Shown here piece after piece: positions 46,427 to 50,607 of a stretch of 53,563 bases of DNA. A program made the position numbers and the translations under genes. How positions within the stretch are numbered: the stretch's first letter is position 1; each line of letters opens with the position of its first letter. This stretch comes from Deltaproteobacteria bacterium (GTDB lineage: Bacteria > Desulfobacterota > Syntrophia > Syntrophales > UBA2210), in NCBI GenBank assembly GCA_026388515.1, contig JAPLJO010000126.1, forward strand, positions 1 through 53,563, given 5' to 3'. The notes beneath the pieces are model-generated. The model did not search any database. It was not told where the DNA came from and was given only the letters and a program-made list of their open reading frames with translations.

Positions 46427-47614
46427 ATGGCACACAGAGATGATACATCTATTTCGGTTGAAGATAAAAAAGAAATCTACCGGGCATTTATTGAATGGAT
46501 GAAAAATGGCTGGTACGGGGTACCCGAGTCAGATGAAGTAGAACCCCTGATGATGGCACGTTACTCTCCGGAAGAAGCTACCTTGCTCACCGGGTTCCCT
46601 TTCGCGCCAATGAGCCTGGACGAATTATCGCAATTGAAAAAGATACCCGCATTGGAGCTTGAGCACAAGCTCGTGGAACTCGCGAGAAAAGGGATTGTGT
46701 ACCGTTACGTGAACAAGAACACTGTATTCTATAGCCTCCATGATACCTTTTCAATGCTGCGCACACTCGGTTGGCAGGGTAAAACCGACGACTATACCAG
46801 GACAGTAAGCCCCATCCTCAACAGATACTGTGCGACAGGGTTCTTGTCTCCCTGGAAATTAACAACACATCAGGCGTTACGTGTGCTGCCCATTGAAAGT
46901 ACCATAAAAGACGGACGCCAAGTGATTCCCTATGAGGAAGTCACCAAGATCCTGGATAATGTTACGTACTTCACCGTAAGCCCCTGCCCCTGTGCACATC
47001 GCAATAATCTTGATTCTGAGCGCCATGACTGCACCTATCCTATTGAACGATGTCTCCATTTCGGCCGATTGGGTCATTATATTGTTGAGCAGGGCATGGG
47101 ACGTGAAATAACCCGTCAGGAAACAGAGGAACTATTACGTAAGTGTGAAGAATTGGGACTGGTACACGCCATCTCAAACCAGCAGGAAAATCCCGATACC
47201 CTCTGCAACTGTTGCCCGTGCTGCTGCATGTGGTTTGAAGCCTACCACAAGCTCGATCATCCCATGAGTATGTCGCCCTCTCATTACCGGGCACATACCG
47301 GCGACACGACGTGCACGGGCTGTGGCCTCTGTGTCAAACGGTGTCCTATGAAAGCGATTCAATTAAAAGAGATGCCCGAAGCGAAGGGTCGGAAGACCGT
47401 CGTGACGGAGGAGAAAAAAGGAACCCGGACGTTGACAAACAAATTAGGCAAGGTGGCTGAAGTCACCACGGAGAGATGTATCGGATGTGGTGTATGTGTC
47501 CATAAATGTCCGAGCGGATCATTATCGCTCACACAATCAGAATCGGTTCAGGACCCGCCAAAAACCATTCGTGACTGGGCAATTCAATTTATGACGGACT
47601 GCAGGAACTCATAA
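46427..47614 (+). CDS. 4Fe-4S ferredoxin-type protein with Cys-rich central domain (paralog 1)
   Basis: CPCAHRNNLDSERHDCTYPIERCLHFG...CNCCPCCCMW... plus ferredoxin motifs CTGCGLCVKRCPMKAI and CIGCGVCVHKCPSGSL. Confidence 0.85.
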   Translation: MAHRDDTSISVEDKKEIYRAFIEWMKNGWYGVPESDEVEPLMMARYSPEEATLLTGFPFAPMSLDELSQLKKIPALELEHKLVELARKGIVYRYVNKNTVFYSLHDTFSMLRTLGWQGKTDDYTRTVSPILNRYCATGFLSPWKLTTHQALRVLPIESTIKDGRQVIPYEEVTKILDNVTYFTVSPCPCAHRNNLDSERHDCTYPIERCLHFGRLGHYIVEQGMGREITRQETEELLRKCEELGLVHAISNQQENPDTLCNCCPCCCMWFEAYHKLDHPMSMSPSHYRAHTGDTTCTGCGLCVKRCPMKAIQLKEMPEAKGRKTVVTEEKKGTRTLTNKLGKVAEVTTERCIGCGVCVHKCPSGSLSLTQSESVQDPPKTIRDWAIQFMTDCRNS

Positions 47615-47640
47615 ATTATTATCTTGAGGAGGATTAAAGT

Positions 47641-48720
47641 ATGTCGACTGAAATTTACCAGGAATTTTGTGATATTATGAAGAAACGGGGCGGGATGTAC
47701 CCCGGTGCGGATATCCCGGAGTTCTATCCTCTCGTTAAGGAACTGTTCACGCCGGAAGAGGCAGCCGTCAGTATTGCCCTGGACCTGGGATTCAGCCCCG
47801 CGAGTGATGTCGCCACAAAAATGGGAAAGGGCGCGAAAGAAGTGGAGGACATGCTCGAAGCAATGGCATACAAAGGCCTCTGCATATCCGCAGACCTGGG
47901 TGGTACTATTTATTACGGAGGTCCTCCCTTTGTCCCCGGCATCTTTGAATTTCAGTTCATGCGGGGAACAAAAACCGAAAAAGATAAGAAACTGGCAAAA
48001 CTCATCCATGCGTACAAGGCGGCATACAGGGTAGCCTATCCCCCCAAGCCGCCGAGTTTTCCGCAGGCCAGAGTCATCACCATCGACAAGGCCGTCAAAG
48101 CGGATAACATGGTATATCCCTATAATCAGGTTGCCCATTATATCGAGACTAATGATCCTTTGGCCGTCTGTACCTGCTTCTGCCGCCATGAAGCCAAACT
48201 GATTGATGAAAAAGATGACTGCAAGGTGCCTGATGAATCCTGCATGATGTTCGGTACCGCGGCCCAGTTTGTGATTGACAGAAAAATAGGCCGAAAAATC
48301 ACTAAAGAGGAAGCTCTGAAGATTCTGAAAGATACTGAGGATGCCGGTTTGGTCCATGCCGGAATCAATAAGCAGAAGCTCGATTTCCTCTGCAACTGCT
48401 GCAGGTGTCATTGCATGATCCTAAAAACAGCCCTGGCGTATCCAAAGCCCGGAGAAGAACTTGCTTCCGGATTTCAACCGGTCTGGGATGCGGAGTTTTG
48501 TAGTGGCTGTGAAACTTGTGTCGATCGATGCCCAATGACGGCACTTACGTCGGGTGAAGAGAATGTGCCGGTGCTGAATCTGGATCGATGTATTGGATGT
48601 GGTGTGTGCTTAACCGGTTGTCCTATGGAGGCAATAAGCCTGGAAATGAGACCCGGAACCATCGTGCCACCTGTTGACGATGCGGCCTCGCGTGAAGCCA
48701 TGCGAGCGGGACGAGTGTAA
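47641..48720 (+). CDS. 4Fe-4S ferredoxin-type protein with Cys-rich central domain (paralog 2)
   Basis: CTCFCRHEAKLIDEKDDCKVPDESCMMFG...CNCCRCHCM... plus CSGCETCVDRCPMTAL and CIGCGVCLTGCPMEAI. Confidence 0.85.
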   Translation: MSTEIYQEFCDIMKKRGGMYPGADIPEFYPLVKELFTPEEAAVSIALDLGFSPASDVATKMGKGAKEVEDMLEAMAYKGLCISADLGGTIYYGGPPFVPGIFEFQFMRGTKTEKDKKLAKLIHAYKAAYRVAYPPKPPSFPQARVITIDKAVKADNMVYPYNQVAHYIETNDPLAVCTCFCRHEAKLIDEKDDCKVPDESCMMFGTAAQFVIDRKIGRKITKEEALKILKDTEDAGLVHAGINKQKLDFLCNCCRCHCMILKTALAYPKPGEELASGFQPVWDAEFCSGCETCVDRCPMTALTSGEENVPVLNLDRCIGCGVCLTGCPMEAISLEMRPGTIVPPVDDAASREAMRAGRV

Positions 48721-49932: not shown

Positions 49933-50118
49933 TATTCTAAATCAATTCCCTGACATTTATTAGGAATTGTAGATGGAAAACGATAGAAATTTGTTTTGAA
50001 TTCAAAAGACTTTTGTATTGGAAAAATCAGGTATGAAAATGCAATGGAAGTATTATGTTAGTAATTAGTATAATCTATCTGATGAGTAATATCGAATTAA
50101 CTAAAAGGGGAAAATCAT

Positions 50119-50607
50119 ATGGCACGCTTACAGGAGAAAATACTTGATACAGGAGATATTTTTCCGTCATTCGAATTTAATACAACGGAAGGGAATCAGA
50201 TAATACTACCGCGCGATTTCGATAGTAGATGGAGTGTAGTATTCACACTTCGCGGCTACTGGTGACCATTCTGCCGTCAACAGGTGGTTGACTTTGAAGG
50301 CAGGATCGAGGAATTTAGCAAACTCAACATTCAGATTATGACTGCATCTGCCGATTCTCTGGAAGATGCCCGCAAAATGAAAGAGGAAAACAAACTATCG
50401 TTTAAAGTAGGCTGGGGACTTAACGCACAAGAAGTGTCAGCAAAAATAGGCGCATTTTTTGACGCCAAACGAAACTATGTCCAGCCTACGGGCTTTATCA
50501 TCAACCCAAGTGGAAAAATTATCATCGCCACCTACAGTACGGGAGCTATAGGACGTCTTACCGCTTCTGACACTTTGACGCTCATTGTGTATCTAATGAA
50601 CAGGTAA
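50119..50607 (+). CDS. Candidate selenocysteine-containing AhpC/TSA (peroxiredoxin-like) protein; in-frame TGA at 50263-50265 read as Sec49
   Basis: MARLQEKILDTGDIFPSFEFNTTEGNQIILPRDFDSRWSVVFTLRGYWUPFCRQQVVDFEGRIEEFSKLNIQIMTASADSLEDARKMKEENKLSFKVGWGLNAQEVSAKIGAFFDAKRNYVQPTGFIINPSGKIIIATYSTGAIGRLTASDTLTLIVYLMNR; the ORF track shows only the part after the TGA. Confidence 0.85.
50263..50303 (+). promoter_or_regulatory. Candidate bacterial SECIS element
   Basis: Directly 3' of the TGA: GTCAAC (50276-50281)-AGGTG-GTTGAC (50287-50292) perfect apical stem, lower stem CTGCC (50271-50275)/GGCAG (50299-50303), loop containing GGU. Confidence 0.7.

Follow-up and report, generated by a model that had tools for sequence, protein, structure and literature searches.

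Within the analysed window, which comprises a contiguous stretch of 53,563 nucleotides, a peroxiredoxin-like (Prx-like) gene is interrupted by an in-frame TGA codon. Comparative sequence analysis indicates that this is very probably a real selenoprotein gene, with the TGA decoded as selenocysteine (Sec). The assignment follows from the presence of the sel machinery in the genome, the retention of the TGA across genomes, a SECIS-type hairpin, and the pairing of Sec with Cys in homologs from aerobic bacteria. Sec decoding had already been proposed in a sequence-only reading of the DNA, and it is upheld by the sel genes, the TGA in 12 other genomes, the hairpin and the Cys residues of the aerobic homologs. 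The encoded protein would most likely be a thiol/selenol oxidoreductase that depends on Sec and has disulfides or peroxides as its substrates.

Gene structure and reading frame

The gene (Table 1) runs from ATG 50119 to TAA 50605-50607 and encodes 162 residues if the TGA, which is codon 49 and the sole in-frame stop within these limits, is read through. The sequence-only reading had described this frame and its coordinates exactly. It had also pointed out that standard ORF calling keeps only the C-terminal piece; indeed, ordinary table-11 calling starts at GTG 50284 and yields a fragment of 107 amino acids. Both halves around the TGA are colinear with the AhpC-TSA model PF00578, in agreement with the colinearity noted earlier for the flanking sequences; the match spans residues 12-134 and scores 73.1 bits against a cut-off of 26 (E=2.5e-20). 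At this base composition the chance of a 161-codon stretch without TAA or TAG is ~9e-4, but the comparative test is decisive, as 12 other genomes carry the TGA at this very codon. Elsewhere in the window, a codon-score screen for further TGA-interrupted genes returned mostly antisense noise, and a tRNA was the only match in an Rfam search at the gathering threshold.

Table 1. Positions of the gene, its redox-motif codons and the associated predicted elements in the window.
Feature	Position	Strand	Basis
Full CDS, predicted UxxC selenoprotein of Prx-like type, 162 aa including Sec49	50119..50607	+	Reading frame, PF00578 match, homologs
In-frame TGA, predicted Sec49 of RGYW-U-PFC	50263..50265	+	TGA also in 12 other genomes at this codon; aerobic homologs have Cys
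Cys52 codon (sole Cys, partner of Sec49)	50272..50274	+	Aligns with peroxidatic Cys of Prx
C-terminal fragment from standard ORF calling	50284..50607	+	ORF listing
Predicted bacterial SECIS core GUCAAC-AGGUG-GUUGAC, 16 nt from UGA to loop	50276..50292	+	Pairing in 13 sequences; rules of PMC13188914
Extended predicted SECIS with lower 7-bp stem and 6-nt bulge	50269..50305	+	Window sequence only; MFE -14.6 kcal/mol, z -2.37
Shine-Dalgarno-like AAGGGGA, ending 7 nt before ATG	50105..50111	+	Sequence itself

Predicted fold and catalytic mechanism

An AlphaFold2 model of moderate confidence (pLDDT 65, pTM 0.65, with residues 1-25 below 50) predicts a Prx/thioredoxin-type fold, in which the UxxC motif would lie at the N-terminal end of a helix formed by residues 50-61. 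The best structural matches of the model are to AhpC (E 3e-8, TM about 0.66), and other peroxiredoxins are matched as well. A candidate for the cis-Pro that faces the CxxC in thioredoxin-type oxidoreductases is Pro122; the aligned residue is also Pro in one homolog (G317) and is Ala in most others. The N-terminal sequence contains no hydrophobic signal, which suggests a cytoplasmic location.

The protein combines an AhpC-TSA domain above the gathering score (73.1 versus 26 bits) with Sec as the first residue of UxxC. In a pairwise alignment to a solved peroxiredoxin, Sec49 falls on the Thr of the PxxxTxxC signature and Cys52 on the peroxidatic Cys, while Arg45 falls on the signature Pro and Ile135 on the second Arg ('TVR'). 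Where catalytic peroxiredoxins have PxxxTxxC and a second Arg, the window protein thus has R45xxxU49xxC52 and Ile135. By these features it is classed as Prx-like and not as a true peroxiredoxin. The earlier description as peroxiredoxin-like therefore holds for the AhpC-TSA domain and the UxxC motif, but does not extend to the catalytic signature of peroxiredoxins, given R45, U49 and Ile135. A reading in which Sec replaces the peroxidatic Cys has to be revised, because Sec49 aligns with the Thr of TxxC and the peroxidatic place is held by Cys52. The functional Sec enzyme proposed in the sequence-only reading would be a Prx-like UxxC protein.

Since Cys52 is the sole Cys of the protein, any redox couple confined to a single chain must consist of Sec49 and Cys52. 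In the proposed mechanism Sec-tRNA(Sec) would be brought to codon 49 by SelB, led there by a SECIS hairpin that starts 11 nt past the UGA. The resulting UxxC redox centre, made up of Sec49 and Cys52, would lie where an α-helix of the peroxiredoxin/thioredoxin fold begins. The Sec selenolate would attack the oxidised substrate, either a disulfide or a peroxide, after which Cys52 would resolve the Sec, giving a Sec-Cys selenenylsulfide that could be recharged by a thioredoxin-type or FAD-dependent disulfide reductase. For this chemistry we infer that Sec49 is probably, though by no means certainly, the attacking residue.

The main rival to attack by Sec49 is a true peroxidase, in which Cys52 attacks and Sec49 serves as a built-in resolving residue. 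Such a mechanism would agree with the alignment of Cys52 on the peroxidatic Cys and of Sec49 on the Thr of TxxC, with AhpC and other peroxiredoxins being the best fold matches of the model, and with the C-terminal Y-S-x-x-x-x-G-R motif, invariant in the aligned set, whose G-R falls on the 'IGR' of the solved peroxiredoxin. However, Sec usually sits at the attacking position, and the signature Pro and Thr of peroxiredoxins are replaced by R45 and U49 and the second catalytic Arg by Ile135. In addition, homologs with such a motif have been catalogued as thiol:disulfide oxidoreductases (PMC13188914). A Cys52-based peroxidase is accordingly regarded as a possible but not a favoured explanation. 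The more specific proposal of a Sec-resolved peroxidase, with Sec at the place of the Prx Thr and the usual roles of Sec and Cys exchanged, in a subfamily that is confined to one anaerobe phylum as sampled and is without an NCBIfam model, appears unlikely.

Genomic neighbourhood

The surroundings of the gene do not support the redox operon suggested by the sequence-only reading: a gap of 186 bp separates it from its upstream neighbour, the next gene-like ORF downstream lies on the other strand, and a comparison of the ORFs within 6.5 kb on either side in 12 genomes revealed no conserved neighbour. Upstream, on the plus strand, are a DUF523-like gene (matching a 2-thiouracil desulfurase model below its cut-off) and a gene for a PEMT/ICMT-type methyltransferase. 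Downstream, a small minus-strand ORF is followed by an aldehyde:ferredoxin oxidoreductase gene 0.6 kb away. In one relative (G030) the gene is directly preceded, at 23 bp, by an FAD disulfide reductase gene, and on two Deinococcus plasmids a gene for a TrxR-like or FAD-dependent oxidoreductase lies directly upstream of the homolog. These flavoprotein genes, which are absent at the other loci, point weakly to a reductase as partner.

Further upstream in the window (46427-48720), two adjacent genes for 4Fe-4S proteins stand behind a MarR-type regulator; beyond their ferredoxin motifs these proteins contain the Cys clusters 'CPC', 'CNCCPCCC' and 'CNCCRCHC'.

Conservation of the TGA codon

Homologs were searched for in relatives of the host, in class samples and in a 395-genome sample of the phylum. 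The TGA is present at the same codon in homologs from 12 other genomes of anaerobic bacteria, all of the same phylum and belonging to about nine families. The nearest of these are 43-49% identical to the window protein over the full length, and between the 13 TGA-bearing proteins the differences reach more than half of the residues. No homolog with Cys at this codon turned up in the 395-genome phylum sample (E<=1e-20) or in either of two class samples (E<=1e-12), and no phage match was found. A scan of genome contigs recovered only a distant relative from Micrarchaeota (28% identical), as the Sec codon was rendered as Cys in its query patterns. Coding-type purifying selection acts on both sides of the TGA, with dN/dS values of 0.37 before and 0.20 after the codon for the pair G030/G090, and of 0.44 and 0.17, based on few changes, for G033/G115.

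A few copies have decayed. In a thirteenth relative (G200) only the C-terminal half is left and the motif is gone, and in G124 the frame is lost near residue 110. The copy in G114 (L042) carries two in-frame TAGs, more stops upstream and a broken N-terminus, with the Sec-TGA and the SECIS stem still intact; the genome of G114 still holds selA and selB. The broken copies in these three genomes imply that some lineages can do without the gene.

Outside the phylum, members of the same subfamily with Cys at the Sec position (YRGxWCP[YF]C, i.e. WCPYC or WCPFC) are encoded on plasmids of Deinococcus, Mycobacterium and Rhizobiales. They are 31-40% identical to the window protein over more than 90% of the length, and their Cys aligns with the in-frame UGA. 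The sequence-only reading had placed the TGA where the family has the first Cys of RGxWCPFC, and these homologs indeed have Cys there. The phylogenetic tree leaves the number of Sec/Cys exchanges inside the subfamily undecided. On a plasmid of Deinococcus sp. QL22 (L066, 1971-2463) the annotation splits the homolog into two overlapping ORFs, with an apparent frameshift, and Arg replaces the first Cys (DWRPFC).

Predicted SECIS element

A hairpin beginning 11 nt after the TGA is common to all 13 TGA-bearing sequences, with a stem of 5-6 bp and a loop of 5 nt. Published rules for bacterial SECIS elements cover the stem length, a 5-nt loop whose second base is G and whose third is G or U, and the distance between UGA and loop (PMC13188914); the window hairpin, with its 6-bp stem, AGGUG loop and 16-nt spacing, conforms to all of them. 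Outside the window the hairpin reads xUCAGC-(A/C)G(U/G)U(A/G/U)-GCUGAx. Five or six of the six pairs form in each sequence, the five core pairs being present in all, while the outermost pair is A-U, G-C, G-U or open, depending on the sequence. One pair is compensated in the window, where G-C has become A-U (CAAC/GTTG versus CAGC/GCTG). Four of the five core pairs are invariant, and covariation alone is therefore a weak signal, with 18 of 500 shuffles reaching a score as high.

Over the 13 sequences, 72 pairs were observed versus 49.1 +/- 2.7 expected upon synonymous recoding of each gene, and 0/20,000 trials were as high, a count that treats related sequences as independent and is not a strict probability. 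In the Cys homologs the number of pairs formed is 1-2 out of 6. For the lower stem of the extended hairpin (Table 1) the evidence is the fold of the window sequence only, and no conservation is claimed.

Selenocysteine machinery and alternative readings of the TGA

The window corresponds to contig C69 of the host draft genome (G000; 2.68 Mb in 175 contigs, completeness 100%, contamination 4.84%). All components required for Sec incorporation were detected in this genome, i.e. selA (580 bits), selB (352 bits, cut-off 242), selD (388 bits) and a tRNA-Sec (selC; 72.8 bits, anticodon TCA according to ARAGORN). They are located on contigs other than that of the window, in a draft with 4.8% contamination. 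The selD gene (L038, contig C126, 1501-2490, minus strand) contains an in-frame TGA of its own in the active-site sequence GAG-U-ACKLGP, and the host SelD is itself a predicted selenoprotein. Among the 13 relatives with the gene or a remnant, selB exceeds its curated cut-off in 12, and so does selA; the gaps concern selB in G231 and selA in G124, whose genomes are 85% and 88% complete, respectively.

Three circumstances had been named in the sequence-only reading as speaking against Sec decoding, i.e. a genome without sel genes, a read error at the TGA, and homologs surviving only as decayed copies. None of them applies, as the host has the four sel genes, one and the same TGA recurs in 13 genomes, and the majority of the homologs are intact.

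Loss of function by a nonsense mutation in a former Cys codon (TGC/TGT -> TGA) would fit the decay seen in some relatives, but is highly improbable given the same TGA in 13 diverged genomes, purifying selection on both sides of it and the maintenance of the SECIS hairpin; this 13-genome conservation and the sel genes led to its rejection. A sequencing or assembly error, conceivable in a draft genome, would have to recur identically in 12 other assemblies, and with the sel genes present it was rejected as having next to no probability. Genome-wide reassignment of TGA, e.g. to Trp, is equally negligible. It was rejected in view of the 13-genome conservation and the full Sec machinery of the genome; in the window, large table-11 ORFs from recognisable families have normal ends, and the homologs have Cys, not Trp, at this position.

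Comparison with known selenoproteins

The gene represents a clean case of a selenoprotein split by standard annotation. With 13 TGA-containing sequences, a conserved SECIS element and Cys counterparts in aerobic bacteria, the material is sufficient to define the subfamily for automated annotation, and it adds further evidence that anaerobes place Sec where aerobic relatives place Cys in the same redox site. The recoding mechanism itself holds nothing new, the protein being an ordinary selenoprotein in kind.

Prx-like selenoproteins with a UxxC motif have been known since 2005 from the catalogues of 2005-2008, and the window gene belongs to this kind. They were described as 'Prx-like' in the Sargasso Sea set (PMC1088965) and as 'Prx-like 1' in the GOS set (PMC2398784), and are listed under PF00578 in the catalogues of 2022 and 2026 (PMC9312934, PMC13188914; Table 1 of the latter), where UxxC-type homologs appear as thiol:disulfide oxidoreductases (PMC13188914). 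With these Prx-like thiol:disulfide oxidoreductases (PF00578, UxxC/UxxU) the window protein shares the AhpC-TSA domain, the UxxC motif with Sec first and the occurrence of Cys homologs elsewhere. Its subfamily is marked by the signature RGxW-U-x-FCxQQ and by Y-S-T-G-x-x-G-R near the C-terminus. In the phylogenetic tree a split with support values of 100/99 separates its group from the FNRGF-U-P[FY]C UxxC Prx-like selenoproteins of the same order, which suggests a separate subfamily by sequence, the comparison being with these proteins only.

The latter form a second Prx-like subfamily, FNRGF-x-U-P-[FY]C-R-x-H, with a conserved in-frame TGA in the same order (L022, L023, L024, L026, L030, L028). 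Two of its members score 73-79 bits with the SelL-related model, below the cut-off of 120, and in L028 FAQ replaces F/YCR, which leaves a UxxA motif from which the partner Cys is gone. Three other genes from relatives of the host (L031, L032, L034) are of AhpC/Prx type and resemble canonical Sec peroxiredoxins, a TGA standing where the peroxidatic residue would be expected (DFTFV-U-PTE).

None of the NCBIfam models scores above its cut-off with the window protein. The Sec peroxiredoxin PrxU of the Eubacterium acidaminophilum type shares the fold superfamily and has Sec in the active-site loop. In PrxU, however, Sec is the peroxidatic residue (TxxU), whereas in the window protein it stands three residues earlier (UxxC), and the PrxU model gives only 22 bits, its cut-off being 270. 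The SelL-related redox protein (NF040769) is alike in having a Prx-like fold with a Sec/Cys UxxC motif; its score with the window protein is 32.9 bits, at a cut-off of 120. The proteins of Deinococcus, Mycobacterium and Rhizobiales annotated as 'peroxiredoxin family protein' or 'redoxin domain-containing protein' belong to the same subfamily and share its motif, but have Cys for Sec and no SECIS hairpin, and occur in aerobic hosts.
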